From assembly GCF_001038505.1 (NCBI RefSeq), contig NZ_LDPY01000002.1, positions 62,001-126,000 of the forward strand: a stretch of 64,000 nt of DNA, given 5' to 3'. The translations under genes and the position numbers were made by a program. The notes beneath the pieces were generated by a model. It searched no databases and was not told the origin of the DNA. It saw only the letters and a list, made by a program, of their open reading frames with translations. Origin of the DNA: Puniceibacterium sp. IMCC21224 (GTDB lineage: Bacteria > Pseudomonadota > Alphaproteobacteria > Rhodobacterales > Rhodobacteraceae). This document shows positions 43,608 through 59,573 of this stretch, piece by piece (positions within the stretch are counted from its first letter, which is position 1; every line of letters begins with the position of its first letter).

Positions 43608-44057
43608 GTGACAAGACTGGATCTCTTCGGGGGGGTGTTCCTCACTACCTTCGGATTGTTCATGATCTTCGTGGCCATTCCAATGGGCACCGAGGATGGC
43701 ATGTACTACGGATTGCCGCCCACCTTTTTTCCGACATTGCTTGCGTCAGGGCTGACGCTCTGCGCGGCAGGTCTGACAGTTCAGTCGGTTTTTCGTATGA
43801 TGGCAGGGCGCACCGGTGATGCGGTGCCGATCAGCCGCTGGAATCTGCTGATGTTCGCTCTGCTGGTCGCAGTGATCTTCGCCGGCGTCGTTCTGTTGGA
43901 CATCTTCGGCCTGGTGATCGGCGCGCCGCTTCTTATTGCGACGCTGATGGTGATTTTAGGTGACCGTAGCCCACTTCGAATCGTGCTGACCTCAGTTCTG
44001 CCGGTTGCTGCGTTCTACTACCTGGCGCTTCACATCCTGCATACGCCTGTGCCCTAA
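43608..44057 (+). CDS. tctB: Tripartite tricarboxylate transporter small membrane protein (TctB)
   Basis: 149 residues with four hydrophobic segments, starting DLFGGVFLTTFGLFMIFVAI, and YGLPPTFFPTLLASGLTL near residue 45, a typical TctB pattern. It is the small subunit of a TTT-type secondary importer and lies 9 bp before tctA. The start at 43608 has GGAGGAAGA before it. Confidence 0.88.
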   Translation: MTRLDLFGGVFLTTFGLFMIFVAIPMGTEDGMYYGLPPTFFPTLLASGLTLCAAGLTVQSVFRMMAGRTGDAVPISRWNLLMFALLVAVIFAGVVLLDIFGLVIGAPLLIATLMVILGDRSPLRIVLTSVLPVAAFYYLALHILHTPVP

Positions 44058-44066
44058 GGAAACGTC

Positions 44067-45608
44067 ATGTTAGAAAACCTCACCGCTGCGGCGAGTGAAA
44101 TTTTTACGCCACTCACGCTTGCCTACATCGTTATCGGCGTGCTGATCGGCTATGTTGTGGGCGCTCTGCCGGGCATGAACCGGACGACGGCCATTGCGAT
44201 CTCGCTGCCCTTTACCTTTGCGATGTCGCCAGCGGCTGCGCTGTCCTTTCTCATTGGTATTAACAAAGGGGGTGCCGCCGGTTCAGCGGTGTCCGCCATC
44301 CTCCTGAATATTCCGGGCGAGCCGTCGTCCGTCGTCACGACCTACGACGGGTATCCGATGACGCAACAGGGCAAGGCGCAGAAGGCGCTCAAGATTGCTC
44401 TGATCGCTTCGGTTGCGGGCGACGTCCTGGCAACGCTTGCTCTGATCCTTCTTGCCCGCCCCATCGCCAAATTCGCTATCGGCCTCGGCCCGGTCGAGCT
44501 TGCTTCGATCCTGATCTTTTCCATGACCTTTATCGCGGCCGTCTCGGGCGATAATTTCTTCAAGGCTCTGATCGCGGGCTTTCTGGGCCTGCTGCTCTCT
44601 GCCCCTGGCATTGATTCCGAAACCGGACTGCCGCGGCTGACCTTTGGCCTGCTGCAACTTTACGACGGCGTGCCGCTTCTTGCCGTCGCTATCGGCACCC
44701 TCGCCCTGTCAGAAATCCTGTCGCAGATCGACGGGGGGTGGCGCGGTGGCTATCACATTGCCCGGACCGTCGATGACACGACAAACGAAGCGGACTCGCA
44801 ACTGTCGCGCGCAGAGCTAAAGCAGGTCTCGCCTGCGATCCTGAAGGGATCACTTGTTGGCACTGCGGTCGGCCTGCTGCCCGGGCTTGGCGCGACGCTC
44901 GCTTCGTTCCTGTCTTACAATTGGGTGCGCCGCAGTTCGCCAAACTCGGAACGGTTTGGCAAAGGTGCCCCGGAAGGCGTCGCCGCTTCGGAAGCGGCGG
45001 ACAACGCTACGGTCCCGGCTTCGCTGATCCCGGTCTTTGCCATCGGCGTGCCCGGCAGCCTGTCCACCGCCCTCCTCATGGGGGCTTTCATGATGCACGG
45101 GTTGACGCCCGGCCCATTCCTGTTCCGCGAAAGCGGCGATGTTGTCTTTGCGATCTACCTTGGGATGATCCTGGCCTCGGTCGCGCTGCTGATGGTCGGT
45201 ATGTTCGGCCAAAAGCTGTTTACCCTTGCGGTGCGGATCCGCGCGTCCGTCATCATGCCGGTGATCGTGTTCCTGTGCATCATCGGCGCGTATATGGAGG
45301 GCGGCGGCATGTTCGGCGTCTACCTCATGCTGATCTTTGGGATCGTTGGCTATTTCATGAAGAAACTGGACTATTCGTTCGTGACCTTCGTGGTTGGTTA
45401 TGTGCTCGGCCCCATGGCCGAACTGACCATCCGCCAGTCGTTGATCCTGTCGAATTCTGATCCGGCAATTCTGCTGGATCATCCGATCGCGATCCTGTTC
45501 CTGCTGCTCGCCGTATTCTCGATCTGGCGTTTCAGCATCGCCGGGGTGCGATCCCCCGACGCGGATCAATCGCGCACTACATCAAAAGAGGGAGGAACCA
45601 AACCATGA
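44067..45608 (+). CDS. tctA: Tripartite tricarboxylate transporter large permease (TctA)
   Basis: 513 residues with about twelve hydrophobic segments. Family motifs seen are VGALPGMNRTTAIAISLPFT near residue 30, GSAVSAILLNIPGEPSSVVT near residue 75 and VGLLPGLGATLASFLSYN near residue 270, the repeated GxxPG elements of TctA. It forms the proton- or sodium-driven channel with TctB. The stop overlaps the tctC start by 4 bp. Confidence 0.95.
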   Translation: MLENLTAAASEIFTPLTLAYIVIGVLIGYVVGALPGMNRTTAIAISLPFTFAMSPAAALSFLIGINKGGAAGSAVSAILLNIPGEPSSVVTTYDGYPMTQQGKAQKALKIALIASVAGDVLATLALILLARPIAKFAIGLGPVELASILIFSMTFIAAVSGDNFFKALIAGFLGLLLSAPGIDSETGLPRLTFGLLQLYDGVPLLAVAIGTLALSEILSQIDGGWRGGYHIARTVDDTTNEADSQLSRAELKQVSPAILKGSLVGTAVGLLPGLGATLASFLSYNWVRRSSPNSERFGKGAPEGVAASEAADNATVPASLIPVFAIGVPGSLSTALLMGAFMMHGLTPGPFLFRESGDVVFAIYLGMILASVALLMVGMFGQKLFTLAVRIRASVIMPVIVFLCIIGAYMEGGGMFGVYLMLIFGIVGYFMKKLDYSFVTFVVGYVLGPMAELTIRQSLILSNSDPAILLDHPIAILFLLLAVFSIWRFSIAGVRSPDADQSRTTSKEGGTKP

Positions 45609-46582
45609 CACTCAAGAGACGAGAATTCGGAAGGCTGGCCGCTGCGCTGGCATGTCTGGGCCTATATTCGGCGCCGGCGGTGGCCCAGGACAACTGGCCC
45701 GAAGATGCCATCACCATCGTGGTCGCCTATCCGGCAGGCGGCGGGACGGATTCGGCCATCCGGGCAATGACCCAGATCGTGAGCGAGGAACTGGGCCAGC
45801 CCATTCTGGTGCAGAATGTTGGCGGTGCCGGTGGCGGTGTTGCCGCCAGCCAGGTCGCCAGAGAAGAGGCCGACGGCTATACGCTGCTTGCCACCAACTC
45901 GACCTCGATCACTCTTGCTCCGCTGGTGCAAAAAGCGCTCTATGATATCGACAGCTTCGATCACATCGCGATCCTCGGAGACTTCCAGAACGCGATTTTC
46001 ACCGGCCCCGACCAGCCTTACAACAGCCTTGATGAGCTGATCGACACCGTAAAATCGGACAACAGGGCCATGACCTATGCAAGTCAGCTGGCCATCGACC
46101 GGCTGCTCATGGCGTACATTGCCAAAGAACGCGGGTTCGAATTGCGCCCGGTGCCGGTGAACGGCGGCAGCGGCGCGGTGCAGGCGGTTTTGTCGGGCGA
46201 TGTGGACGTTGCTTTCTCGGGCGGCTCGTGGCGTCCGATCGTGGCCGCGGGGGATGCAAAGTCGCTGTTCGCGGCATCCTTTGATCGTCTCAAGGTCGCG
46301 CCGGATCTGCCGTCCATGAAGGATATGGGTTTTGAGTTCGGTGTGACCAGTCGCATCTCGCTGCACGCCCCGGCGGGCGTGCCCGCTGACAGACTCGAAA
46401 AGATCTCGGCAGCGTTTGATAAGGCCGTGAACAGCGAGCTGGCACAATCCGTCGGTGAAAAGCGCTCTATGGACATGACATTTCGCGGGTATGACAAAGC
46501 CCAAGATCTGATGCAGCAGGAACGGGAAACCTACGAAAAGATTCTGGCAAATGTCGGCCCGGAAACGCTCAAGGGGAACTAA
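45605..46582 (+). CDS. tctC: Tripartite tricarboxylate transporter solute-binding protein (TctC/Bug)
   Basis: 325 residues with a signal peptide ending in AVAQD near residue 28. Bug-family motifs are seen: ITIVVAYPAGGGTDSAIRAM in the N-terminal lobe and NVGGAGGGVAASQVAREEAD, whose loop holds the ligand carboxylate. The C-terminal lobe has LHAPAGVPADRLEKISAAF. Bug proteins bind citrate, glutamate, nicotinate and various dicarboxylates; the ligand here is likely the substrate of the PrpD and lyase genes. Confidence 0.93.
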   Translation: MTLKRREFGRLAAALACLGLYSAPAVAQDNWPEDAITIVVAYPAGGGTDSAIRAMTQIVSEELGQPILVQNVGGAGGGVAASQVAREEADGYTLLATNSTSITLAPLVQKALYDIDSFDHIAILGDFQNAIFTGPDQPYNSLDELIDTVKSDNRAMTYASQLAIDRLLMAYIAKERGFELRPVPVNGGSGAVQAVLSGDVDVAFSGGSWRPIVAAGDAKSLFAASFDRLKVAPDLPSMKDMGFEFGVTSRISLHAPAGVPADRLEKISAAFDKAVNSELAQSVGEKRSMDMTFRGYDKAQDLMQQERETYEKILANVGPETLKGN

Positions 46583-46764: not shown

Positions 46765-47352
46765 TCAAGTATGCGGCCAGGCCCAAGCAGACTGCGCGTG
46801 GCGCGCAGTACGATAGGCAGAAATCGCTTCAGCGTGTTGCGCGGTCAGGTCGATATCGTCCCACCCATTGCGCAGCTTTTCCCGCCAGACCGGATCCAGC
46901 TCGAATTGAACATTGCGCCCGGCGATCAGGGCAGTCCCGGTTGTCAGGTCGACATGTGCAGTAGCGGTCCTGCTGCCCAGTTCGGTCAGCAGCTCTTCGA
47001 TAACCGTGTCGTCGAGACGCGCCGGGAGCAGGCCGTTATTCACCGCGTTGCCAGAAAAGATATCGCCGAAACTTGGGGCAAATACGGCGCGGATGCCAAA
47101 ATCCACCAGCGCGTAAACTGCGGCCTCGCGACTCGAGCCGCTGCCAAAGTTGCGCCGCGTGACCAATACCTTGGGCGCGGTTCGGTTCAGGATGTGATCG
47201 GGGTCGTCCTGCCTGATGTCATGCAGCAGGTAGCCGCCATAACCGGCGCTGCGCGGCGTTGACATAAATCGCGCCGGAATCAGCTGATCGGTGTCCACAT
47301 TTTCGGCAGGTAGGGCGGCAACGTCACCCTCAAGGATTTGCCAGCCGCTCAT
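46765..47352 (-). CDS. LeuD-like aconitase-family hydro-lyase, small subunit
   Basis: 195 residues from the ATG at 47352, which overlaps the leuC-like stop (ATGA). The swivel domain shows ENVDTDQLIPARFMSTPR and the active-site loop NFGSGSSREAAVYAL. In biosynthetic LeuD this loop reads NFGCGSSREHAPWAL, so the serine and arginine that bind substrate are kept while the HAPW part differs. This hints at a substrate other than isopropylmalate. It acts as a heterodimer with the large subunit. The context is catabolic, with a GntR regulator and no other leucine genes, which supports a paralogue. Confidence 0.82.
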   Translation of the reverse strand: MSGWQILEGDVAALPAENVDTDQLIPARFMSTPRSAGYGGYLLHDIRQDDPDHILNRTAPKVLVTRRNFGSGSSREAAVYALVDFGIRAVFAPSFGDIFSGNAVNNGLLPARLDDTVIEELLTELGSRTATAHVDLTTGTALIAGRNVQFELDPVWREKLRNGWDDIDLTAQHAEAISAYRTARHAQSAWAWPHT

Positions 47353-48746
47353 GACCGCCCCTCCAGCAGCGGGCGCACATCCGCGAGATGGCCAGTCACG
47401 GCGGCGGCCGCGACCATCGCCGGACTCATCAGATGGGTGCGCGATCCGCGCCCTTGCCGGCCCTTGAAATTCCGGTTGGTCGAAGACGCGCAGCGTTTGC
47501 CCGCCTCGACCCGGTCGCCATTCATCCCGACACACATCGAGCAACCGGACTCAGCCCATTCCAGCCCTGCTTCGGTAAATATCTGCGCCAGCCCCTCGGC
47601 TTCGGCCTGCCGTTTGACCGCCGCCGAGCCGGGCGATACCAGCCCCGGCACACGCGCACGTCGCCCGGCAAGAACCTGCGCCGCCATGCGCAGATCCTCG
47701 ATCCGGCCATTGGTACAGGACCCGATAAAGACCTGATCCACCGAAATCGACGTCAGCGGGGTACCTGGCGACAGCGCCATGTAATCAAGTGACGCACGTA
47801 TCGCTACGCTCTTGCCGGCTTCGAACTGCGCCGGGTCCGGCACGATGCCGGTGATTGGCAGTGCCTCTTCGGGTGACGTACCCCATGTAACCGTCGGCGC
47901 GATGTCCGCCGCGTCGATCCGGTCTTCACGGACGAATGCAGCGTCGGGATCGCTGTTAAGCAGCGCCCAGTCATCAACGGCGCGGGCCCAATCGTCGCCT
48001 TTGGGGGCATAGCGGCGCCCATCGAGATAGGCAAATGTCACCTCGTCCGGGGCGACAAGGCCCAGTCGCGCGCCACCTTCAATCGACAGGTTGCACAGGG
48101 TCATACGACCCTGCATGCTGAGATTGTGCACCGCAGAGCCAGCGTATTCGATTGCATGACCGCGCGCGCCATCCGCGCCCAGCCGCGCAATCCAGTGCAG
48201 CGCCATATCCTTGGCCGTGACGCCGGGGCCAAGCGTGCCGTCGATGGTGATTCGCATTGCGCGCGGTTGCGATTGCCAGACTGTCTGCGTCGCCAGAATA
48301 TGCGCGACCTGGGTTGCACCGACACCAAAGGCCAGCGCGCCGAACGCGCCATGTGTCGAGGTGTGACTGTCACCGCAATTCACCTGCACTCCGGGCAGCG
48401 TCAGACCCAGTTCCGGCCCGATCACATGCACAATGCCCTGTGCCGGATCCTTGAGATCAAACAGCCGGACCCCGTGTGCGCGGGCATTGTCACCCAATGT
48501 ACGGATCATTCGGGCAATGTCGGGATCCATCTGGCCGGACCGCGTCGGGGCGTAATGATCCACCATGGCAAAGGTCAGTCCCGGCTCAGCCACCTTTTGA
48601 CCACGCGCCTCAAGCTTGGCAAAAGCGTGGTGCGACCCTTCGTGGACCAGATGCCGATCAACCCATAGCAGGGCCGAACCCCCCTCGCCTTTCAGCACGG
48701 TATGCGCCTGCCACAGTTTTTCCAACAAAGTCTGCGGTGCGTTCAT
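47349..48746 (-). CDS. LeuC-like aconitase-family hydro-lyase, large subunit
   Basis: 465 residues with the [4Fe-4S] cysteines visible in VFIGSCTNGRIEDL and SGCSMCVGMN. Substrate and catalytic segments are GDSHTSTHGAFGALAFGVG and TNRNFKGRQGRG. Length and motifs match bacterial LeuC closely. With the small subunit it would hydrate or dehydrate a 2- or 3-substituted malate/maleate-type acid. Its start overlaps the stop of the GntR gene by 4 bp. Activities known for this subfamily include isopropylmalate, citraconate/methylmalate and dimethylmaleate hydration. Confidence 0.85.
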   Translation of the reverse strand: MNAPQTLLEKLWQAHTVLKGEGGSALLWVDRHLVHEGSHHAFAKLEARGQKVAEPGLTFAMVDHYAPTRSGQMDPDIARMIRTLGDNARAHGVRLFDLKDPAQGIVHVIGPELGLTLPGVQVNCGDSHTSTHGAFGALAFGVGATQVAHILATQTVWQSQPRAMRITIDGTLGPGVTAKDMALHWIARLGADGARGHAIEYAGSAVHNLSMQGRMTLCNLSIEGGARLGLVAPDEVTFAYLDGRRYAPKGDDWARAVDDWALLNSDPDAAFVREDRIDAADIAPTVTWGTSPEEALPITGIVPDPAQFEAGKSVAIRASLDYMALSPGTPLTSISVDQVFIGSCTNGRIEDLRMAAQVLAGRRARVPGLVSPGSAAVKRQAEAEGLAQIFTEAGLEWAESGCSMCVGMNGDRVEAGKRCASSTNRNFKGRQGRGSRTHLMSPAMVAAAAVTGHLADVRPLLEGRS

Positions 48747-49558
48747 TCGGCTGCCTCGGACCGTGGGACGTCAATAACCGGCTCCCAGTGGCGGGTATCG
48801 TCTGTACCAACGCGGTTCAACGACATTTCAAGCCGGAACAGGTCGGGCCGATAGAGCGCAGAAAGATATTCCACACCCTTTCCGTCGGCATCCAGTACAA
48901 CCCGGCGCAGTGACAGAACTGGCGCACCAACGCTGAGACCTAGAACCTCTGCTACATCTGGGGTGGCAAGCGTGGCACTAACGCTTTGATGTGCGCGTTC
49001 GATACAGACACCCGAGCGTTCAAGCAGACGGAACAGCGGTGTCGTCGCCAGATCGGCCTCGGTATAGTTGGCGGCGACGTCTTCGGGTACATAGGTGGTG
49101 AGGTGCGAAAACGCCCGCCCCTGTGCCAGACGCACCCGCACAGCCGTCTGAACCCGACCGTCGCCGGGCAGACCCATCGCTTCGGCCACAACAGATGGCG
49201 CGACGCCGTAAGAAAACGACAGCAGACGCGCCGTAGTTTTTTGATCCATCTCGACAAGTTGCGGAATCAGCGTGGTAAAATCGGCCAGCACAGGCGGATA
49301 CGAGGTCTGCGCCTGCACCACTGTACCCGACCCCGCGCGCCGTGCGATCATGCCGTCTTGCGATAGCGCATCCAGCGCCCGGCGCACCGTCACTCGTGAC
49401 ACACCCAGCCGCAGCGCCAGCTTTTGTTCTCCCTCAAGCGCCGCGCCTGGCGCGTGCACTCCGCGCAGGATTTCTTCCTGCAACAACAGATAGACCCGCC
49501 GGGCCTTGCCCCCTTCGGGAAGGCCAGATCCTTTTCCCGCTGCTCCAACTTGCGCCAT
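48743..49558 (-). CDS. GntR-family regulator (HutC subfamily, UTRA domain)
   Basis: 271 residues from the ATG at 49558 with GGAGG five bases upstream (an in-frame GTG is at 49570). The winged helix reads EQKLALRLGVSRVTVRRALDALS. The ligand-binding UTRA domain follows, with FSHLTTYVPEDVAANY and VEYLSALYRPDLFRLEM. It is the first gene of the gntR-leuC-leuD operon and is divergent from the hyu operon. A perfect inverted repeat lies between the two directions. Confidence 0.9.
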   Translation of the reverse strand: MAQVGAAGKGSGLPEGGKARRVYLLLQEEILRGVHAPGAALEGEQKLALRLGVSRVTVRRALDALSQDGMIARRAGSGTVVQAQTSYPPVLADFTTLIPQLVEMDQKTTARLLSFSYGVAPSVVAEAMGLPGDGRVQTAVRVRLAQGRAFSHLTTYVPEDVAANYTEADLATTPLFRLLERSGVCIERAHQSVSATLATPDVAEVLGLSVGAPVLSLRRVVLDADGKGVEYLSALYRPDLFRLEMSLNRVGTDDTRHWEPVIDVPRSEAAE

Positions 49559-49655
49559 GCATTCCTCCACTCGTTACTGGATTCTAACGTCCTGTCTGCC
49601 AAACACAAGAAATCTAACTTGCAAAGATGAAAATAATTACGCTTTGCGAAGACGA

Positions 49656-49683
49656 CAATCTGTATTACAAAAAATACAGATTG
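49656..49683. promoter_or_regulatory. Operator candidate of the leuCD/hyu module
   Basis: CAATCTGTATT at 49656-49666 and AATACAGATTG at 49673-49683 are perfect 11-base arms around ACAAAA. It lies in the AT-rich gap between the divergent HutC-type regulator and the NTF2-hyuBA operon. A second inverted pair, GCAAAG at 49621-49626 with CTTTGC at 49642-49647, is nearby. The symmetry and place fit a GntR-type operator controlling both operons. Confidence 0.65.
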
Positions 49684-49775
49684 AACGGAGGTGCTGTAGT
49701 GATCGGCAAAAACATGACGGGTATGGGGCGGTATTTCGGAAAAGATCGCAGTGCAAGTGAAAAGCGGCGCTGCGT

Positions 49776-50162
49776 ATGATCGATTCAGGCGACCCGACCA
49801 ACATCGTGCAACGATTCCTGGCGGCTCTGGAGGCCCGGGATATCGATTCTGCCCGGGGCCTGATCGCGCCCGGGTTCACAATGATATTTCCCGGCACCGC
49901 CCCCATGACATCTCTGGATGCACTGATTGCGTGGGCGACACTGCGTTACAGGTTTGTGCGCAAGACTTTCGCAGGCTTTGATCCGGTCCCCGGACAGGGG
50001 GACACCGCAACAGTCTATTGCCGTGGCACGCTTTCAGGCGAATGGCCCGACGGCAGCGCGTTCATCGGCATTCGTTTCATCGACCGGTTTGAACTGGTCG
50101 CAGGACAGATAACCAGACAGGACGTCTGGAACGACATTGCAGAAACAAAGGCGGCTCCATGA
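49776..50162 (+). CDS. NTF2/SnoaL-like fold protein
   Basis: 128 residues in the usual order of a cone-shaped NTF2-like domain: helix IVQRFLAALEARDID, then GLIAPGFTMIFPGTAPMTSL, and three beta strands ending DRFELVAGQITRQDVWND. Family members are isomerases, dehydratases or binding proteins with a deep hydrophobic pocket. It is the first gene of the plus-strand hyu operon and overlaps hyuB by 4 bp (ATGA). It may isomerise or hold the cyclic substrate; its function is not known. Confidence 0.7.
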   Translation: MIDSGDPTNIVQRFLAALEARDIDSARGLIAPGFTMIFPGTAPMTSLDALIAWATLRYRFVRKTFAGFDPVPGQGDTATVYCRGTLSGEWPDGSAFIGIRFIDRFELVAGQITRQDVWNDIAETKAAP

Positions 50163-51853
50163 CAGAACCCATCGACCCGATCACCCTGGCCGTTCTGGCC
50201 GGACGGATGGAACAGATCGCAGACGAAATGGACGCGACCCTGTTCCGCGCGGCCTTTAATCCGATCATCGCCGAGGCGCATGATGCATCACACGGGCTGT
50301 ATCATCCAGCGACCGGCGACACATTGGTACAGGGGAAATCGGGGCTGCCGATCTTTGTCGGGGTGATGTCCTTTGCCGTTCGCGCCGTCATCGACAAGGC
50401 CGAAGAACACGGTGATCTGGCAGACGGTGATATCTACATCTTCAACGATGCCCACATTGGCGGCACTCACCTGAACGACATGCGCCTTGTCCGGCCCTAT
50501 TTCCGCGACGGCAAGCCGTTCTGTTTTCTGGCCTCGGTCGGTCATTGGCACGATCTGGGCGGCGGAGTACCGGGCAACTACAACCCCGCCGCAACGGATG
50601 TGTTTCAAGAGGCATTTGTGCTGCCGCCGGTACGGCTGGCTCGCGCCGGTGTGGTGCAGACCGACGTTATTGACATCCTGATGCGCAACACCCGGCTGCC
50701 ACAATCCGCCGAGGGTGACCTGAATGGACAGCTGGGCGCGCTGGATCTGGGCGTCAAGCGGATGGACGAGCTGCTGGACGAATACGGTGCCGACACGGTG
50801 CGGGCGGCGCTCGATTCGCTGCAAGATCGGGCCGAGATGCTGATGCGTGCCGAACTGACGGATTTGCCCGATGGTCGCTGGGAGGCCGAGGATTTCCTCG
50901 ACAATGACGGGATCACCGACACGCCGCTGGCCATTCGCGTTGCCCTTGAAATCAAGGGGGACACCATGACGCTTGATTTCACCGGAACCGCAGATCGCTG
51001 CGCCGGTCCGGTCAACATCGCACTGCCGACGGCGGTGGCGACGGCCTATGTGGCGATCAAGCACATCTTTCCGGCGCTGCCGGCCAATGCGGGCGTGATG
51101 CGCCCGATTGACGTGAAAATTCCCGAAACTTCGTTGTTGTCTGCCCCGTTCCCCGCCCCCGTTGGCGGCTATACAGAGACGATTCTACGCATGATCGACG
51201 TGATCTTTTCCGCCGCCTCGCAGGCCGCTCCTGACCGCGTGGTCGCGAACGCCTATGGCACGATCAACGCGCTGTCGATTGCGGGCAAACGCGAAAACGG
51301 TCAGCCGTGGGTCATGTTCAGCTTTTACGGTGGCGGGCATGGCGGATCGCCAGAAGGTGACGGGCTGAACCACGGCAACGCGCCGATTTCAACCGCGACG
51401 ATTCCCCCGATGGAGATCCTGGAGGCCGCCTATCCGGTGATGTTCCGGCAGTGGGCGCTGCGACCCGACAGCGCGGGTGCAGGCACCCATCGGGGCGGCA
51501 TGGGCGCTGTCTACGAGATCGAAGTGCTGGAAAAGGACGCAACGGCGTTCTTGTTCGGAGAACGCGGGCGCTTTGCACCGCAGGGTGTCGCGGGCGGCGG
51601 TTCGGCGGCGCTGAACGTGTTTTCCTATGAACAGGCCGACGGCTGGCACAGCCCGCCGATGGCCTCAAAAATGGTGGGTATAAAACTGGAACAGGGGCAG
51701 GCCGTCAGGCTCGAAACACCTGGGGGCGGCGGCTTTGGTCCGGCGTCAGGCCGCGATCCGGCAGCCGTCGCGCGGGATGTTGCGATGGGGCTGATGTCGT
51801 CCGACACGGCAACCGACGCCTATGGCGAAGCCTGGAAGGAGGCACAATCATGA
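50159..51853 (+). CDS. Hydantoinase/oxoprolinase family subunit B (HyuB)
   Basis: 564 residues of the hydantoinase B type, starting DPITLAVLAGRMEQIADEMD. Characteristic segments are IYIFNDAHIGGTHLNDMRLV, DFTGTADRCAGPVNIALPTA and YGGGHGGSPEGDG. Together with HyuA it forms an ATP-dependent enzyme that opens cyclic amides such as hydantoins or 5-oxoproline; acetone carboxylase subunits are also related. It overlaps both neighbours by 4 bp. The downstream genes suggest that the ring-opened product is further hydrolysed and cleaved. Confidence 0.9.
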   Translation: MTEPIDPITLAVLAGRMEQIADEMDATLFRAAFNPIIAEAHDASHGLYHPATGDTLVQGKSGLPIFVGVMSFAVRAVIDKAEEHGDLADGDIYIFNDAHIGGTHLNDMRLVRPYFRDGKPFCFLASVGHWHDLGGGVPGNYNPAATDVFQEAFVLPPVRLARAGVVQTDVIDILMRNTRLPQSAEGDLNGQLGALDLGVKRMDELLDEYGADTVRAALDSLQDRAEMLMRAELTDLPDGRWEAEDFLDNDGITDTPLAIRVALEIKGDTMTLDFTGTADRCAGPVNIALPTAVATAYVAIKHIFPALPANAGVMRPIDVKIPETSLLSAPFPAPVGGYTETILRMIDVIFSAASQAAPDRVVANAYGTINALSIAGKRENGQPWVMFSFYGGGHGGSPEGDGLNHGNAPISTATIPPMEILEAAYPVMFRQWALRPDSAGAGTHRGGMGAVYEIEVLEKDATAFLFGERGRFAPQGVAGGGSAALNVFSYEQADGWHSPPMASKMVGIKLEQGQAVRLETPGGGGFGPASGRDPAAVARDVAMGLMSSDTATDAYGEAWKEAQS

Positions 51854-53913
51854 TACGCCCCCTTATGATCGGCGTCGATGTTGGCGGGACATTCACCGAT
51901 GTCTTTGTTCTGGACGAATCTAGCGGCACGGCGCAGGTCGCCAAGGTGGCAACTTCGCGGCCGGACCAATCCGGCGGCTTTCTTGATGGGATTCGCACGC
52001 GGGTTGATGATCTCGATTCAGTGTCCGTCATCGTGCATGGCACCACCGCCGGCACCAACGCCCTGCTGGAACGCAAGGGCGCGCGGATCGGCATCATTAC
52101 GACCGAAGGTTTGCGGGACGTTCTGGAAATGCGCCGCCGCGACCGGCCCCGCACCTGGGGTCTGCGCGGTGACTTTGTGCCCGTCGTGCCGCGCGATCTG
52201 CGCCTCGAAGTGCCCGAGCGGACGCTGGCCGATGGCTGTATCCGCACTCCGGTCGACCTCGATGCCGTGACCGCCGCTGCCCGTGCGCTGATCGAGGACG
52301 GATGTCTGGCCTGCGCCGTGATGTTCGCCAACAGCTATGCCAACCCCGAAAATGAGCGGGCCGCCGTGGCGGCGGTGCGCGCGGTCTGGCCAAACGCGCA
52401 TGTCTCGGCCTCGTCCGAGATCCTGCCGGAAATCCGCGAATTTGAACGGTTTTCGACCACTGCGCTGAACGCCTACCTGCAACCCGAAGTGTCCGGCTAT
52501 ATCGACCGACTGGAAACCGCGCTGAAATCTGACGGCTTCGCCGGTGAATTCATGATCGTGCAGTCAAACGGTGGCGTGATGGATGTGGCGACGGCAGCCA
52601 AGGTACCGGTGCGCACCGCCCTGTCGGGGCCAGCGGCGGGCGTGATCGCGGCAGGCTACATCGCAGAGGCGGCAGGCTTTCCGAACGTCATCACTGGTGA
52701 CATGGGCGGTACCAGCTTTGACGTGTCGCTGATCGCTGCGGGTCAGTCGATGCTGACGCCGCAAACCTCGATTGATTTTGGCATGGTCATCCGGTCGCCG
52801 ATGATCGAGATTGCCACCATCGGTGCCGGGGGCGGCTCGATCGCTTGGGTTGATCGTGGCGGCCTGCTGAATATCGGACCCGAAAGCGCGGGATCAACGC
52901 CGGGACCAGTCGCCTATGGTCAGGGCAATACGCGCCCAACGGTGACGGATGCCAACGTGGTTCTGGGCCGGATCGACCCGGACAGCCCGATCGGCGGCAA
53001 ACTCAAACGCCTGGATGTGGACGCCGCCCGCGCCGCGATTCTGGAACATGTGGGCAAGCCACTGAACCTTGATGCGCTACAGGCGGCCGAAGCGATCCTG
53101 ACGGTTGCCAACAGCCGGATGGCGGGCGCACTGCGGTTGGTGTCCATCGAACGCGGGTTTGATCCCAAAAACTTTGCGTTCATGCCGTTTGGCGGCGGCG
53201 GCGCCCTGCATGCAGGAGCGATGCTGGCGGATGTCGGACTCGCTCGGGCCATTGTGCCGCGCTATCCCGGCGTTCTGTCGGCCATGGGCTGCGTGATCGC
53301 TGACATGCGGCAGGATTTTGTTCAGACCATCAATGCACCGCTGGCCGGGCTGGATATAACGGCGCTGACGCGCTTTATGCAGGGCCATATCGACAGTGGG
53401 CATGCGACTCTGGACGCGGCGCAGACCCGCTTTGAATCGCGTGATGTGACCTTTACCCTCGACATGTCCTATCTGGGGCAGACGCATACGGTGTCGGTGC
53501 CGCTGGTCGTCACCGTAAGCGATGGCACGGTGCGGCAGGTGACGCCGGATCAGATCGCCGCTGCCTTTGACGACGCCTATCTGGCCACCTATGACCGCGT
53601 CCTGAAAAACGGCACGCGCCGGGTGATCAACCTGCGGTCGGCGGTGACTGGGCGCAGACCACGGTTTGATCTGAGCTCGCTTGCGCCCAAAGGCGGCAGT
53701 GTCGAGGCGGCGCATGTCGCCACACGCCAGGTGCATTTCGGCGACACCTGGTACAATACAGCCATATATAAACGTCTGGACCTACCTGTCGGGGCCAGAA
53801 TCCCGGGGCCTGCAATCCTTGAGCAGCCCGACACCACCGTGTTGATCGAACCCGGCCTGACCGGCCTGATCGACGCATTGGGCAACACCATCATCGAAAG
53901 GTCCGGCGGATGA
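51850..53913 (+). CDS. Hydantoinase/oxoprolinase family subunit A (HyuA)
   Basis: 687 residues. The N-terminal phosphate-binding loop of the actin-like ATPase fold is IGVDVGGTFTDVFVLDE, followed by VIVHGTTAGTNALLERKGAR and the second ATPase part with VITGDMGGTSFDVSLIA and GAGGGSIAWVDRGGLLNIGP. It phosphorylates the amide carbonyl so that the ring can be hydrolysed by HyuB. The length is typical. It is coupled by ATGA overlaps to hyuB and to the isochorismatase-like gene. Its paralogue on the minus strand is at 59.6-61.7 kb. Confidence 0.92.
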   Translation: MIRPLMIGVDVGGTFTDVFVLDESSGTAQVAKVATSRPDQSGGFLDGIRTRVDDLDSVSVIVHGTTAGTNALLERKGARIGIITTEGLRDVLEMRRRDRPRTWGLRGDFVPVVPRDLRLEVPERTLADGCIRTPVDLDAVTAAARALIEDGCLACAVMFANSYANPENERAAVAAVRAVWPNAHVSASSEILPEIREFERFSTTALNAYLQPEVSGYIDRLETALKSDGFAGEFMIVQSNGGVMDVATAAKVPVRTALSGPAAGVIAAGYIAEAAGFPNVITGDMGGTSFDVSLIAAGQSMLTPQTSIDFGMVIRSPMIEIATIGAGGGSIAWVDRGGLLNIGPESAGSTPGPVAYGQGNTRPTVTDANVVLGRIDPDSPIGGKLKRLDVDAARAAILEHVGKPLNLDALQAAEAILTVANSRMAGALRLVSIERGFDPKNFAFMPFGGGGALHAGAMLADVGLARAIVPRYPGVLSAMGCVIADMRQDFVQTINAPLAGLDITALTRFMQGHIDSGHATLDAAQTRFESRDVTFTLDMSYLGQTHTVSVPLVVTVSDGTVRQVTPDQIAAAFDDAYLATYDRVLKNGTRRVINLRSAVTGRRPRFDLSSLAPKGGSVEAAHVATRQVHFGDTWYNTAIYKRLDLPVGARIPGPAILEQPDTTVLIEPGLTGLIDALGNTIIERSGG

Positions 53914-54512
53914 TCCCCTCACGCACAGCATTGCTGACGATTGATCTTCAGAACGACTTTCTGCATCCCGAAGGCGCCTATGGCCGCGCCGGTCAGAGGG
54001 CAGACAGCATCGCCGCCCTTCCCGCGCGGATCGCGCCGTTGCGCGACGCCTTGCGCGACCAGGGGGGAACGTACGTTTCGGCGCAGTTCACCCTGGTGCC
54101 GAAACCGGACGGCGAACCGCTGATCGCACCGCATCTCAAGGCGCTGAGGCCGTTCCTGACCAAAGGCGATTTTGCCCCCGGCGGGTTTGGTCACACATTG
54201 GTGGATGAATTGGCACCGGCGGATTATACGGTGGAAAAGGTCAACTATTCCGCGTTTTTCCAGACACGGCTGGAATATGTGCTGCGCGCATTGAACATCG
54301 ACACGCTGATCATCGGCGGGATCGTGACCAACGGCGGCGTCGCCAGCACCGTGCGCGACGCCCATCTGCGCGAGATTCACACAATCCTGCTGTCGGATGG
54401 CTGCGCTGCCTTCCGCGACGAGGTACATCAGGCGACGTTGGTGTCGCTGGGGTCGGTGTCCGATGTCGTCACCTGCCAAGAGGCACTTGCCATGATTGGG
54501 GGTGTATCATGA
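53910..54512 (+). CDS. Isochorismatase-fold hydrolase without the usual catalytic cysteine
   Basis: 200 residues with the family's aspartate in LLTIDLQNDFLHP (near residue 11) and the lysine in TVEKVNYSAFFQT. The third triad position, normally cysteine in TNxCVxST, reads TNGGVAST, so the nucleophile is glycine. Amidases of this fold (nicotinamidase, N-carbamoylsarcosine and maleamate amidases) need the cysteine. Isochorismatases such as PhzD work without it. The protein therefore may cleave an enol ether or do a different reaction, although its place after hyuBA would suit an amidase. It overlaps both neighbours by 4 bp. Confidence 0.82.
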   Translation: MIPSRTALLTIDLQNDFLHPEGAYGRAGQRADSIAALPARIAPLRDALRDQGGTYVSAQFTLVPKPDGEPLIAPHLKALRPFLTKGDFAPGGFGHTLVDELAPADYTVEKVNYSAFFQTRLEYVLRALNIDTLIIGGIVTNGGVASTVRDAHLREIHTILLSDGCAAFRDEVHQATLVSLGSVSDVVTCQEALAMIGGVS

Positions 54513-55369
54513 CCCTGCGCAACCTTATCTCGCAATCGGAAATTCTGGTGGCCCCCGGCGTCTATGACGGTCTGACCGCCGCTCTGGCCACGCAGGCGGG
54601 GTTTCAGGCGCTGTATCTTTCGGGTGCCGCAGTGGCCTATACCCGGCTCGGGCGTCCCGATATCGGACTATCGACCTCTAGCGAAATGACCGAAACAATG
54701 GCCCTGATTGCCGACCGAACCGATCTGCCGGTGATCATTGATGCCGACACCGGCTTTGGGAATGCGTTGAATGCGCGCCGCACAATGCAGAGCTATGAAC
54801 GCGCCGGCGCGGCGGCCCTTCAGGTCGAGGATCAGACTTATCCCAAACGCTGCGGGCATCTGTCCGACAAATCGCTGATCCCAAAGGAAGAGATGGCGGG
54901 CAAGCTGGCCGCCATGGCGGATGCCCGCCGCCATGACACGCTGATCATCGCGCGCACCGATGCGATTGCCGTCGAAGGGTTTGAGGCGGCGATGGACCGC
55001 GCCGAAGCCTATACCGAAGCGGGCGCCGATGTGCTGTTTGTTGAGGCACCGCGCAATAAGGACGAGTTGACCCGTATTACCGAGCGTTTCCAGGGCCGTG
55101 TGCCGCTGTTGGCCAACATGGTCGAAGGTGGGGCGACGCCGATTACTCAGGCAAGAGATCTTGAGACGATGGGCTTTGACATCGTGATTTTCCCGGGCGG
55201 CATCGTGCGCGCGCTGGCCCATGCGGCGCGGGATTACTACGGATCGCTACAGGAAAACGGGTCGAACCAGCCGTTTTCGCACCGGATGTTCAATCTGGAC
55301 GGGCTGAACGAGGTCATTGGAACGCCTGAGATGCTGGCCTTAGGGCGCCGTTTTGACGGCAAAGCATAA
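54509..55369 (+). CDS. Isocitrate lyase/PEP mutase family lyase (dimethylmalate/methylisocitrate lyase-like)
   Basis: 286 residues. It has an N-terminal APGVYDGLTAALATQAGF, the metal-binding IDADTGFGN and QVEDQTYPKRCGH with the catalytic cysteine of C-C lyases, then RTDAIAVEGFEAAMDRAEAY. It probably splits a 2-hydroxy-diacid into pyruvate (or oxaloacetate) and a second acid. As the last gene of the hyu operon, with an aconitase-family hydro-lyase encoded divergently, a hydratase-then-lyase sequence as in the dimethylmaleate branch of nicotinate fermentation is possible. It is a paralogue of the lyase at 37.7 kb. Confidence 0.88.
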   Translation: MTLRNLISQSEILVAPGVYDGLTAALATQAGFQALYLSGAAVAYTRLGRPDIGLSTSSEMTETMALIADRTDLPVIIDADTGFGNALNARRTMQSYERAGAAALQVEDQTYPKRCGHLSDKSLIPKEEMAGKLAAMADARRHDTLIIARTDAIAVEGFEAAMDRAEAYTEAGADVLFVEAPRNKDELTRITERFQGRVPLLANMVEGGATPITQARDLETMGFDIVIFPGGIVRALAHAARDYYGSLQENGSNQPFSHRMFNLDGLNEVIGTPEMLALGRRFDGKA

Positions 55370-55397: not shown

Positions 55398-56873
55398 TTA
55401 ACGCCGGATAAACGGGTTGGCGACGACTGTCGGTTCTGCCAGCCACACAGATTTCGGTTGCAGGTATTCCTTGATCGCCTCGAGACCGTTTTCACGCCCC
55501 AGTCCGCTGTTCTTGGTGCCGCCGAACGGCGTCGTGTAGCTTGTCGAGCGGTAGGTGTTGACCCAGACTGTGCCGGCCTGAAGACGGCGTGACATCCGCA
55601 ACGCGCGGCTCAGATTGTTGGTCCAGACCCCGGCGGCAAGCCCGTAGGCTGAATCGTTGGCGATATGCACGGCTTCGTCCTCGTCGGCAAAGCGCAGGAT
55701 CGACAGCACCGGGCCGAACACCTCTTCCTGTGCGATGCGCATATCGTTGCGTACATCGGTAAAGATAGTGGGTTCGACGAAATATCCACCCGCTCCTTCG
55801 GGCTGCGCCGCCCGTCCGCCCAGAATGCAGTTGGCGCCTTCGGCCTTGGCGATGTCGATATAGGACAGGATTTTCTGATGCTGCGCCTGCGTCGCCACGG
55901 GTGAGATATTGGTTGCCGGATCCATCGGATCCCCCAGAACGGCCGCCCCTGCCATTTCGGTCAGCCGTTCGACAAAGCTGTCATAGATCCCATCCTGCAA
56001 CAACAGCCGCGATCCCGCGATGCAGGTTTGTCCCGACGCCGCAAAGATCCCCGAAATCGCGCCGGGGACGGCGGCGTCCAGATCAGCGTCGTCAAAGACA
56101 ATGTTTGGCGATTTGCCACCCAGTTCAAGAGTGACCTTCTTGAAATCGCGCGCGGCAGCTTCGTTGATCGCGCGCCCCGCGGCTTCGCCGCCGGTAAAGG
56201 CGATCTTGCGCACCAGAGGATGGGTGACCAGCGGCATTCCCGCCTCTGCCCCAAAGCCGGTGATCACATTGACCACACCGGGGGGAATGTCGGCCTGTTC
56301 GACAAAATGCATCAGTTCCAGTGTCGAGGCCGAGGTGAATTCGGACGGTTTGATCACCACCGTGTTCCCTGCCGCCAGCGCGGGTGCCAGTTTCCATGCC
56401 AGCAGCAACAGCGGCGAATTCCAGGGGGTGATCAGGGCGCAGACGCCCAGTGGCTCATGGGTCACCATGTTGACCACACCCGGTTTGTCGATTGGCGGGA
56501 CGCTGCCTTCGACCTTGTCGGCAAGCCCGCCGTAGTAGGCATACCAGTTCGCCATATAGCGGCACTGGTTAGACATTTCCGCCAGCAGTTTGCCATTGTC
56601 GCGGACCTCGGTTTTCGCCAGAAAATCCGAATTGTCGGTGATCAGCCCAGCCAGCCGCACCAGCGCCGCGCCGCGCGCACTGGCGGTCCAGCGGGGCCAG
56701 TCTCCCGTCGTGAACGCCCGTTGTGCGGCCTGCACTGCGCGATCCACATCCGTGGTTCCGGCCTTGGGTATCCGCGCCCAGTCTTGCCCGGTATAGGGGT
56801 TCTTCGAGGCAAAGGTTTCGCCACTGTCGGCTCCACACCAGGCGCCATCGATATACATCTGATAGTCTTGCAT
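55398..56873 (-). CDS. NAD(P)-dependent aldehyde dehydrogenase
   Basis: 491 residues. Family segments: ITPWNSPLLLLAWKLAPALA, the glutamate in VTLELGGKSPNIVF, the catalytic cysteine in ASGQTCIAGSRLLL and the C-terminal PFGGTKNSGLGRENG. This is the betaine/5-carboxymethyl-2-hydroxymuconate semialdehyde dehydrogenase-like group of the superfamily. It oxidises an aldehyde to the acid. It is the last gene of a minus-strand operon of CoA and hydantoinase enzymes, 11 bp after the hydroxyacyl-CoA dehydrogenase gene. Confidence 0.93.
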   Translation of the reverse strand: MQDYQMYIDGAWCGADSGETFASKNPYTGQDWARIPKAGTTDVDRAVQAAQRAFTTGDWPRWTASARGAALVRLAGLITDNSDFLAKTEVRDNGKLLAEMSNQCRYMANWYAYYGGLADKVEGSVPPIDKPGVVNMVTHEPLGVCALITPWNSPLLLLAWKLAPALAAGNTVVIKPSEFTSASTLELMHFVEQADIPPGVVNVITGFGAEAGMPLVTHPLVRKIAFTGGEAAGRAINEAAARDFKKVTLELGGKSPNIVFDDADLDAAVPGAISGIFAASGQTCIAGSRLLLQDGIYDSFVERLTEMAGAAVLGDPMDPATNISPVATQAQHQKILSYIDIAKAEGANCILGGRAAQPEGAGGYFVEPTIFTDVRNDMRIAQEEVFGPVLSILRFADEDEAVHIANDSAYGLAAGVWTNNLSRALRMSRRLQAGTVWVNTYRSTSYTTPFGGTKNSGLGRENGLEAIKEYLQPKSVWLAEPTVVANPFIRR

Positions 56874-56884
56874 CGCGGTTCCCT

Positions 56885-58381
56885 CTATGTGGCCAGCGGC
56901 AGACCAAGGCGCGCACGCTGGCGCAGATACTGGCTGGGTCGATACCGCGGATCGCCAGTCTGGCGTTGCAGCGCCTCCAAAATCCCCAGCACCCGCTGCG
57001 GCCCGAGCGTATCGCCAAGCGCCAGCGGCCCGTGCGGATACCCCAGCCCTAGCCGCACACCGTCATCAATGTCGGCAGGCGCCGCGATTTGCATCTGTGA
57101 AATCTCGCAGCCGGTGTTGACGACCATTGCCAGAATCCGCTGGGCGACAAACCCGGGACTGTCGGCGATGCGCGTCACCTTTTTACCGGCCAGCAGCAGG
57201 GCGCGGTGCAGCTGGTCGCACAGATCTGGCACTGTCGCGGGGGTCGGCATGATCGTCACGCGGGGGCTGTCAACCGTCAGCGGGTCGATGGCCATGACGC
57301 ACGCAGGGTCAAGTTCCAGTTTTAGCGCCGCCTCGGTCGCGTCTAGGCCATAGGGTGCCAGCAGGCAAACCGCGCCCTGCGCTGTGTCAGACATTTCGAC
57401 TCCTGCACCAACAAGCGCGGGCAGGATCTGCGCAAGGTCGGCGCGCATTTCCGGCGGCACCCAAAGACGGGGCAGCGTGCCATCAGGCGGCAACTTCTCT
57501 GGTGGATCAACGCGGCGACCCGCGGCGTAGCGGTAGAACCCTTCGCCCGTCTTGCGCCCATGCAGGCCGGCTGCCACGCGGGCCGCCAGATGAACACCGG
57601 GACGATAGCGCGGTTCTTGATGGAACTGGCCATAAATCAGCTGCAGCACCGGATAGGACACATCCAGCCCGGTCAGATCCAGCAGTTCGAACGGACCCAT
57701 GCGAAAGCCGGCAGCGTCACGCATCACACGATCCACATCAGCCTCGGAGGCAAGGCAATCCTGCACAATCCGGCTGCCTTCGGTCAACAACCCGCGCCCC
57801 GCGTGGTTGATCAGGAATCCCGGCGCATCCCGGCACAAGATCGCGCGATAGCCGATCTTGTGCGCGACCGACAGCGCCGCATCTGTCGCCGCAGGATCAG
57901 TGCGCAATCCGGGAATAACCTCGACCATTTTCATCAGCGGCACCGGGTTAAAGAAATGCAGCCCGACGACGCGGCCCGGCGCAGAGACCCCAGCCGCTAT
58001 GGCCGATACTGACAACGACGACGTATTGGTGGCCAGCACCGCATCCGCGCCCAATATCTGTTCAAGCTGGGCAAACAGCGCCTGCTTGGCATCGAGTGAT
58101 TCCGCGATTGCCTCGATCGCCATCTGTGCGGGCGCCAGCTCTGACAGGGCGTTTACGACCAGTAGCCGGTCTTTGGCTGCCTGTGCATCCTCGCGTGTCA
58201 TCCGGGCCTTGTCGGTCGCGCGGTCCAGCATCTGTCCGGCGAAATCCACCGCGGCCTGCGCAGCCTCGGCACGCTGATCAAACACCAGTACGTTGTATCC
58301 CGCCACGGCAAGCGTCTGGGCAATGCCCCGACCCATCGTGCCAGAGCCAATCACCGCGATGGTGTCAATCATGCCGTTCAT
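56885..58381 (-). CDS. 3-hydroxyacyl-CoA dehydrogenase with duplicated C-terminal domain (PaaH-like)
   Basis: 498 residues. NAD-binding Rossmann start IAVIGSGTMGRGIAQTLA, the signature HFFNPVPLMKMVEV with the catalytic histidine, and a first C-terminal domain up to about residue 290. A second 3HCDH C-terminal domain follows (FVAQRILAMVVNTGCEISQM and LGLGYPHGPLALGD). This doubled layout is found in 3-hydroxyadipyl-CoA and related dehydrogenases. It overlaps the acyl-CoA dehydrogenase gene by 4 bp, so successive oxidation of an acyl-CoA is the likely job. Confidence 0.92.
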   Translation of the reverse strand: MNGMIDTIAVIGSGTMGRGIAQTLAVAGYNVLVFDQRAEAAQAAVDFAGQMLDRATDKARMTREDAQAAKDRLLVVNALSELAPAQMAIEAIAESLDAKQALFAQLEQILGADAVLATNTSSLSVSAIAAGVSAPGRVVGLHFFNPVPLMKMVEVIPGLRTDPAATDAALSVAHKIGYRAILCRDAPGFLINHAGRGLLTEGSRIVQDCLASEADVDRVMRDAAGFRMGPFELLDLTGLDVSYPVLQLIYGQFHQEPRYRPGVHLAARVAAGLHGRKTGEGFYRYAAGRRVDPPEKLPPDGTLPRLWVPPEMRADLAQILPALVGAGVEMSDTAQGAVCLLAPYGLDATEAALKLELDPACVMAIDPLTVDSPRVTIMPTPATVPDLCDQLHRALLLAGKKVTRIADSPGFVAQRILAMVVNTGCEISQMQIAAPADIDDGVRLGLGYPHGPLALGDTLGPQRVLGILEALQRQTGDPRYRPSQYLRQRARLGLPLAT

Positions 58382-59535: not shown

Positions 59536-59573
59536 GTTTGTTTCCTTGTCTTGTCTGCGCCGGGACTGGCTGT

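Follow-up and report, generated by a model that had tools for sequence, protein, structure and literature searches.

Introduction

At the end of nicotinate fermentation in Eubacterium barkeri, dimethylmaleate hydratase (DmdAB) and 2,3-dimethylmalate lyase act in turn and yield propionate and pyruvate. The cyclic imide pathway uses an imidase and a half-amidase, and the methylcitrate cycle includes PrpB, PrpD and AcnD. Parts reminiscent of each are encoded in Puniceibacterium sp. IMCC21224 at positions 46765-55369 of a stretch of 64,000 nucleotides (contig NZ_LDPY01000002.1, positions 62,001 to 126,000; hereafter the window), where genes for a LeuCD-type hydratase, a HyuAB pair, an isochorismatase-fold protein without the catalytic cysteine (Iso) and a PrpB-like lyase stand together. 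It is very likely that this conserved and apparently undescribed catabolic module is real. Its preferred reading, which is tentative and given a little less than an even chance, is degradation of a hematinic-type acid, that is, an imide or lactam acid with a 2-carboxyethyl side chain, to pyruvate and glutarate.

As at the end of the E. barkeri pathway, a disubstituted maleate would be acted on first by a LeuCD-family hydratase and then by a PEP-mutase/ICL-superfamily lyase. However, glutarate and pyruvate are proposed here instead of propionate and pyruvate, the hydratase in the window is of the LeuC and not the DmdA type, and we know of no counterpart in the E. barkeri end steps of HyuAB, Iso or FADox, a flavoprotein encoded in most relatives of the locus. 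Opening of a five-membered imide and its deamidation to a dicarboxylate would be shared with the cyclic imide pathway, from which the module differs in its HyuAB-family opener, its Cys-less hydrolase, and hydration and cleavage steps where that pathway enters the citrate cycle directly. With the methylcitrate cycle it has in common a hydratase and a PrpB-like, pyruvate-releasing lyase, and some relatives carry MmgE/PrpD; the lyase nevertheless scores below the prpB cutoff, HyuAB and Iso are added, and PrpC is not among the identified module genes, no search having been aimed at it. In the accessible parts of the open-access literature no such gene cluster was found, in agreement with the remark in the initial annotation that no described pathway with this gene set was known.

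Conservation of the gene set

The Iso protein was used as the marker for finding the loci of relatives. A search of 385 genomes of the class, including the window's own, gave 26 other matches of 52-71% identity in 25 genomes, the next match having 39%. A scan with one genome per species gave at least 386 stretches encoding an Iso relative at an E-value of 1e-3 or better, of which the best 80 (the named loci) lean to close kin and belong mostly to Roseobacters, then to Rhizobiales. Of 398 genomes of the phylum, seven in addition to that of the window have Iso; one of the seven belongs to another class, and six neighbourhoods not yet in the set were added. The resulting 112 loci (80 named, 26 class-level and 6 further) may include one species twice, and one genome (G231) contributes two loci. 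A gene was scored as present from tblastn matches above set identity cutoffs; contig ends truncate some of the loci, and one further stretch (L173) was left out.

The grouping of HyuB, HyuA and Iso is not a matter of chance, because the three genes are contiguous in 101 of the 112 loci; a check on the co-occurrence of these families had been suggested at the outset, when an unconserved neighbourhood was named as evidence against the module, and the neighbourhood proved to be kept across relatives. The lyase is found in 102 loci, a hydratase of any type in 93 and FADox, which the window is without, in 89, and 79 loci hold all four elements (HyuB-HyuA-Iso, lyase, hydratase and FADox). Roseobacter loci have the layout of the window, usually with FADox after the lyase. 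The layout in Allorhizobium, Hoeflea and Stappia is Liv-LeuC2-LeuD2-Lyase-HyuB-HyuA-Iso-FADox, and in Bosea, Bradyrhizobium and Chelatococcus MmgE/PrpD replaces LeuCD. A SnoaL gene occurs in 53 of the 80 named loci and in 3 of the 26 class-level loci.

An isochorismatase fold without the cysteine

Iso (53910-54512, plus strand; Isochorismatase Pfam family) keeps Asp12 and Lys110 and has Gly143 at the place of the catalytic Cys. In the alignment, Gly143 stands opposite the second Cys of TNCCV in 3kl2 and opposite the Ser of TEVSV in the triuret hydrolase 6xj4, by its title a C162S mutant, positions that we take to be those of the catalytic Cys. This place is occupied by Gly in 112 of 113 aligned Iso sequences, by Ala in one and by Cys in none, and both Asp12 and Lys110 are kept in 113/113. 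The missing Cys, at first seen as the weak point of a degradation module, is thus a trait of the family, and the same prevalence of Gly among relatives rules out decay of the gene. The sole relative with Ala (L064, G231 C45) has no other module gene in the 12.5 kb fetched.

The structure model of Iso (pLDDT 81.6, pTM 0.81) matches biuret, triuret, RutB and PhzD structures alike, and by sequence and fold together the nearest named proteins are the biuret, triuret and RutB hydrolases. Compared with isochorismatase-like cysteine amidohydrolases, Iso has the fold, the Asp and the Lys, and is missing the nucleophilic Cys. The isochorismatases PhzD and EntB resemble Iso in the active-site Gly and the retained Asp and Lys, and 1nf9 is matched in fold, but identity in this match is 26%, no isochorismate context was seen near Iso, and the ureido-hydrolases score as well as or better than PhzD/EntB.

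The residue of SmEntB at the place of the Cys is presumably Gly156. This Gly sits near the pyruvyl carboxylate in the active site, according to the accessible text of the SmEntB study (PMC12210187). By analogy, Iso may bind a half-amide or carboxylate at the place of the Gly. Because dialkylmaleamic acids hydrolyse fast by means of their own carboxylate, it can be speculated that Iso needs no Cys for hydrolysis of such a half-amide.

Genes for ring opening, hydration and cleavage

The HyuB (50159-51853, plus strand; PF02538, 564 bits) and HyuA (51850-53913, plus strand) subunits are encoded by adjacent genes that together carry the HyuA N, A and C domains and the HyuB domain (PF05378, PF01968, PF19278, PF02538), and are presumed from these domains to open a cyclic amide or imide with ATP. 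N-methylhydantoinase and caprolactamase have both subunits with the same domains and are the closest systems: N-methylhydantoinase 7hk5 is the nearest solved protein to HyuA (461 bits), and CapA/CapB are the closest NCBIfam models. The gene partners of these enzymes are different, however, and membership in caprolactamase CapAB was rejected, since the scores of 504 and 309 bits lie below the NCBIfam cutoff of 1000.

The hydratase is encoded on the minus strand by leuD (46765-47352; 195 aa; Aconitase_C 6.8e-20; NF002458, 186 bits against a cutoff of 167) and leuC (47349-48746; 465 aa; PF00330, 514 bits), the latter with the motifs GSCTN and GCSMC, to which we ascribe an iron-sulfur role. Both score above the leuC/leuD NCBIfam cutoffs. 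In the tree, the window LeuC and 12 other cluster LeuCs form a group of 13 rows (support 100/99) that excludes the three further LeuC copies encoded in the window genome. One of these three copies is located about 3 kb from leuB (L008:1816-2925, 466 bits against a cutoff of 353) and is likely the biosynthetic one. The initial annotation had named membership in the biosynthetic isopropylmalate clade, with no second leuCD in the genome, as evidence against a catabolic role; the window LeuC lies outside the group of the leuB-linked copy, and other LeuC copies exist. The genome has five Aconitase-family genes overall. Two more LeuC copies lie beside DctM (TRAP) and TctA (L006, G000 C2:184000-196000; L007, C1:4127500-4140000), which suggests additional catabolic aconitase-type hydratases. 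The cluster LeuCs are not one clade, because those of L044, L046, L050 and L155 fall into neither group, and the fork joining them is weakly supported (84/60).

Three hydratase families occur near Iso, namely LeuCD, DmdAB/HacA-like proteins (LeuC2) and MmgE/PrpD; among the 112 loci, LeuC alone is found in 59, LeuC2 alone in 22, PrpD alone in 6, several types in 6 and none in 19. These alternative families support a hydration step, probably of a maleate-like or citrate-like acid, because three hydratase types would otherwise be hard to explain. LeuC2 and LeuD2 score above cutoff with homoaconitase-family and LeuD/DmdB subfamily models. By regular expression, the Fe-S cysteine motif is present in 58 of 60 LeuC and in 0 of 26 LeuC2 proteins; a second, looser motif is present in 12/26 LeuC2, and three Cys in ligand-like motifs were seen by eye in that of L051.

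The lyase (54509-55369, plus strand; PEP_mutase/ICL; PF13714, 156 bits) was rejected as a PrpB methylisocitrate lyase at 302.2 bits against a cutoff of 354.4. It matches PrpB/dimethylmalate-lyase-like proteins, which release pyruvate, with about 179-202 bits and is thus closer to them than to isocitrate lyases, whose scores do not exceed 62 bits. CGHL is present in 101/101 cluster lyases examined; KxCGH is presumably the gating loop with the catalytic Cys of the PEP-mutase/ICL superfamily. Three more PrpB-like lyases, with 38-45% identity to that of the module, are encoded on the same contig (G000 C2:137312-138148, C2:138262-139101 and C2:99765-100559, the last being window 37765-38559).

Glutarate-type genes linked to the cluster in relatives

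A CoA-transferase and an acyl-CoA dehydrogenase were first recognised by Pfam family beside some clusters of relatives. Before their functions were compared, they were expected to be enzymes of glutarate use if the module degrades hematinic acid, which would give pyruvate and glutarate. The dehydrogenase of one relative (L050:8421-9608) matches solved glutaryl-CoA dehydrogenases (GCDH) with up to 620 bits (1sir); 4w9u, named only as an acyl-CoA dehydrogenase, gives 600 bits, and the first enzyme of another name, acyl-CoA oxidase 4, gives 243. For the CaiB-type transferase of the same locus (L050:7118-8356), the succinate-glutarate CoA-transferase model is the best of six (533 bits, the next 295), and the match to the human-type succinate-hydroxymethylglutarate transferase is 342 bits.

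Counted at 60% identity or more to the L050 dehydrogenase, GCDH adjoins the module in 13/112 loci, on the same strand and 59-110 bp from a module gene, and CaiB adjoins it in 12/112. There are three layouts: GCDH stands between CaiB and Iso in L044, L050 and L052, and nine loci of Roseobacter type and, in a layout of its own, L127 have it after FADox. Comparison of coordinates in eight genomes placed a GCDH in the cluster in seven, five of which have a second copy elsewhere (G162, G260, G033, G746 and G747); the single GCDH of G247 lies outside the cluster. Judged from genome size, this adjacency would exceed chance. The linkage is the strongest clue to the side chain of the substrate, and release of glutarate by the module is likely.

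FADox, transporters and an accessory cluster

FADox is a FAD_binding_2 protein akin to fumarate reductases. The Arg of AVRG is replaced by Ile, Met or Val in 85/86 rows, and the second Arg (GANRLGGN) is not conserved, with any Arg at columns 431-435 in 11/86 rows, a column placed by gapped pairwise alignment. The two are presumably the proton-donor Arg and the substrate Arg of fumarate reductases. Because neither is conserved, FADox is probably not an ordinary fumarate reductase, and it may act on an uncharged ring.

TRAP transporter genes are present in 46 of the 80 named loci, LIV-ABC genes in 12 and TctA/TctC in none, and the window has a TctB-TctA-TctC tripartite carboxylate transporter (TTT; 43608-46582, plus strand) just beyond leuD. 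The TTT beside the module in the window and the TRAP transporters of many Roseobacter clusters are presumably of carboxylate-uptake kinds, and the solved proteins nearest to DctP and TctC gave no clear hint of the ligand. Although TctB-TctA-TctC adjoins the module, its membership is uncertain, with TctA/TctC matches in 0/80 named, 2/26 class-level and 2/6 further loci.

The genus of L044, L050 and L052 also has an accessory cluster not linked to HyuAB (L170:4473-13935 and L171:4683-14174), with the order LivMGF-PrpD-lyase-FADox-two Asp/Glu/hydantoin racemases-second PrpD; a tautomerase is present in L170, the one scanned. Racemases and a tautomerase would be in keeping with a succinimide that occurs as stereoisomers and double-bond isomers, and with hydantoins as well.

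Proposed pathway

We infer the reactions, their order and the substrate from the gene families, their conservation, the exchange of hydratases, the loss of the Cys and the GCDH and CaiB genes linked to the cluster. Ring opening by HyuAB, hydration by LeuCD and C-C cleavage by a PrpB-like lyase had been suggested initially from the window, in which genes for the flavoprotein dehydrogenase, TRAP or LIV transporters, GCDH and CaiB could not be seen; families and conservation support a degradation module of this kind, and its reactions are proposed as follows. The acid would be taken up by TTT, TRAP or LIV transporters, and in most relatives, not in the window genome, a saturated ring would be desaturated by the FAD_binding_2 dehydrogenase. 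HyuAB would then open the ring with ATP, and the Cys-less Iso would free ammonia from the half-amide, possibly by acid-base catalysis with Asp and Lys in which the neighbouring carboxylate replaces the Cys. The resulting 2-methyl-3-(2-carboxyethyl)maleate would be hydrated by LeuCD (elsewhere by DmdAB-like or MmgE/PrpD proteins) to methyl-homoisocitrate, which the PrpB-like lyase would split into pyruvate and glutarate. Finally, activation of glutarate would fall to a CaiB-type transferase and its oxidation to glutaryl-CoA dehydrogenase.

The most likely substrate, in an assignment that also falls just short of even chances, is hematinic acid, 3-methyl-4-(2-carboxyethyl)maleimide, from heme, bilins or chlorophyll, or its dihydro form where FADox is present. 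Ring D of chlorophyll is saturated and bears a methyl and a propionate group. Substituted maleimides from tetrapyrroles had been named initially as chemically fitting substrates and are still the best fit; the presence of glutarate-type genes in the clusters of some relatives narrows them to the propionate-bearing one, hematinic acid. In the accessible text of the studies concerned, hematinic acid was found in leaves (PMC7318184); in fossil leaves it was ascribed to the chlorophyll D ring, and it was undetected in a fresh modern leaf (PMC12860425). Maleimides are listed as tetrapyrrole breakdown products in a bacterial porphyrin study, as far as its text was available (PMC8669743).

Several observations count against the degradation of a hematinic-type acid. 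A Cys-less amidase would be unusual, and the substrates of Gly-bearing isochorismatases are vinyl ethers. No hydratase was seen in 19/112 loci and more than one type in 6/112, and the pathway does not account for the role of SnoaL. In the genus of L044, L050 and L052 the lyase is at another locus (two genomes examined), and the hydantoin/allantoin-racemase-like genes of some relatives could point to hydantoins. No close FADox was found in the window genome (best match 29%), which may therefore use only the unsaturated acid, and no paper on dihydrohematinic acid was found in the open-access papers searched. The L050 GCDH reached no cutoff among 11 NCBIfam models; the model for the glutaryl-CoA dehydrogenase Acd, GlutCoADH_Des, gave 215 of 470 bits and ranked fourth, and may describe a different GCDH type. 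The L050 transferase lies below the NF052585 cutoff (533 against 750 bits), and among solved proteins it is closest to 4ed9, a CaiB/BaiF protein of unnamed function (422 bits). Moreover, 99/112 loci are without an adjacent GCDH, that of the window genome is not at the module, and independent events may be few, nine of the 13 cases having one Roseobacter-type layout and three belonging to one genus.

Alternative explanations

Among the rivals, a hydantoin-type pathway ranks first but is itself unlikely. HyuAB would open a hydantoin, Iso would act on the N-carbamoyl acid and the remaining genes would take the carbon skeleton, as the proximity of HyuA to N-methylhydantoinase and of Iso to the biuret, triuret and RutB hydrolases could suggest. 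The Cys of those hydrolases is missing in every Iso sequence, however, and hydratase, lyase and GCDH would be left without explanation; the racemase-like genes of some relatives, which would also suit hydantoins, give matches of 50% or more in 7/80, 0/26 and 0/6 loci, plus L170 and L171. Nearly as much weight, and still a low probability, goes to a homoaconitate-type imide or tricarboxylate, with hydrogen in place of the methyl group, that would be cleaved to glyoxylate and glutarate. It would account for the GCDH/CaiB linkage equally well, and agrees with the scores of LeuC2 and LeuD2 above the homoaconitase-family and LeuD/DmdB cutoffs, but the lyase is nearer to the pyruvate-releasing proteins than to isocitrate lyases, and we know of no abundant natural imide of this type. 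Ranked next, and likewise improbable, is the use of simple alkyl maleimides or succinimides (citraconimide, dimethylmaleimide, methylethylmaleimide) as the chief substrates. The same order of enzymes would be chemically workable, yet citraconimide and dimethylmaleimide, both put forward in the initial annotation, fit less well because no glutarate would result, and uptake through TTT and TRAP transporters would point to a substrate that itself bears a carboxylate. Maleimides do occur in sediments and senescent leaves, according to the accessible text of one study (PMC12860425), whereas that of another leaf study has hematinic acid and no maleimides (PMC7318184).

Much less probable is an oxindole-acetate or aryl-succinate route. 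A HyuAB pair opens a lactam in anaerobic indoleacetate degradation, and HyuAB, CaiB and an acyl-CoA dehydrogenase are found together in some loci; this dehydrogenase, however, is nearest to glutaryl-CoA dehydrogenases, none of the scanned neighbour-cluster representatives belongs to aromatic-degradation families, and the indoleacetate reading was left as weak. Ordinary leucine biosynthesis or methylcitrate-cycle genes brought together by chance are scarcely credible: LeuC and LeuD do exceed the leuC/leuD cutoffs, but a LeuCD pair near leuB sits elsewhere in the genome, the lyase misses the prpB cutoff and the neighbourhood is conserved. Plain leucine biosynthesis was rejected by the LeuC tree, in which the module LeuC is in a group separate from the leuB-linked copy. 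Riboflavin/lumichrome catabolism was also left as weak, the accessible text of PMC12746152 mentioning neither a hydantoinase nor an isochorismatase, as was nicotinate degradation via dimethylmaleate, the required mutase and isomerase not being among the identified module genes, for which no dedicated search was made.

In its wider form, the hematinic acid reading is possible but more doubtful: the module would be the first recognised bacterial route mineralising the propionate-bearing rings of chlorophyll and heme after macrocycle breakdown. Hematinic and dihydrohematinic acid would yield pyruvate, glutarate and ammonia; the route would be widespread among marine Roseobacters, would also occur in Rhizobiales, and would employ a new class of Cys-free isochorismatase-fold amide hydrolases in which the substrate's own carboxylate catalyses. 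Chlorophyll is made and degraded on a scale of 10^12 kg per year, according to the accessible text of PMC7318184, and in the accessible open-access literature no gene-level description was found of bacterial use of its last one-ring fragments. The gene set, kept in many marine and soil alphaproteobacteria, would make such use directly testable in Sulfitobacter marinus, Puniceibacterium sediminis, Marivita lacus, Bosea and Bradyrhizobium. In addition, it provides a natural isochorismatase-fold family that lacks the catalytic cysteine, and a step at which three hydratases seem to be interchangeable.

Layout, predicted operator and neighbouring genes

Pfam and NCBIfam families and the coordinates agree with the initial description of eight genes in two divergent operons, and neighbouring genes share 4 bp (TCAT/ATGA) at each of the six junctions within the operons, including that of leuD with leuC, as had been noted for almost all of them. 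The minus-strand operon begins with a GntR/HutC-type regulator with a UTRA ligand domain (48743-49558; PF00392, PF07702), whose start is read as the ATG at 49558 instead of the GTG at 49570 given in the list of open reading frames. The plus-strand operon begins with a SnoaL_2/NTF2-fold protein of 128 aa (49776-50162; PF12680, 6.2e-9). The inverted repeat reported between the operons is indeed perfect, with 11-bp arms and no mismatch (CAATCTGTATT-N6-AATACAGATTG, 49656-49683).

Of 53 divergent intergenic regions between GntR and SnoaL or HyuB, 20 contain TGTAT-N3..9-ATACA, against a mean of 0.08 and a maximum of 1 in 50 dinucleotide shuffles; the regions are related sequences and hence not independent, and the shuffled control covers this motif alone. 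Because the motif is kept to this extent, the repeat is a plausible, predicted GntR operator. The stricter CTGTAT-N4..9-ATACAG occurs in 8 of the 53 regions.

Beyond the lyase, a separate minus-strand operon extends from 55398 to 64000 of the window and on to about C2:134400 (L009). This operon was set aside as a part of the module, since its 3-hydroxyacyl-CoA dehydrogenase and aldehyde dehydrogenase families are each found in 3/80 named loci and its acyl-CoA dehydrogenase in 1/80. It encodes an aldehyde dehydrogenase, a PaaH-like 3-hydroxyacyl-CoA dehydrogenase, an acyl-CoA dehydrogenase, a second HyuA and HyuB, a class IV aminotransferase, TctA-TctB-TctC, a TPP enzyme and an amidase, and so adds another HyuAB group of catabolic genes next to that of the module.

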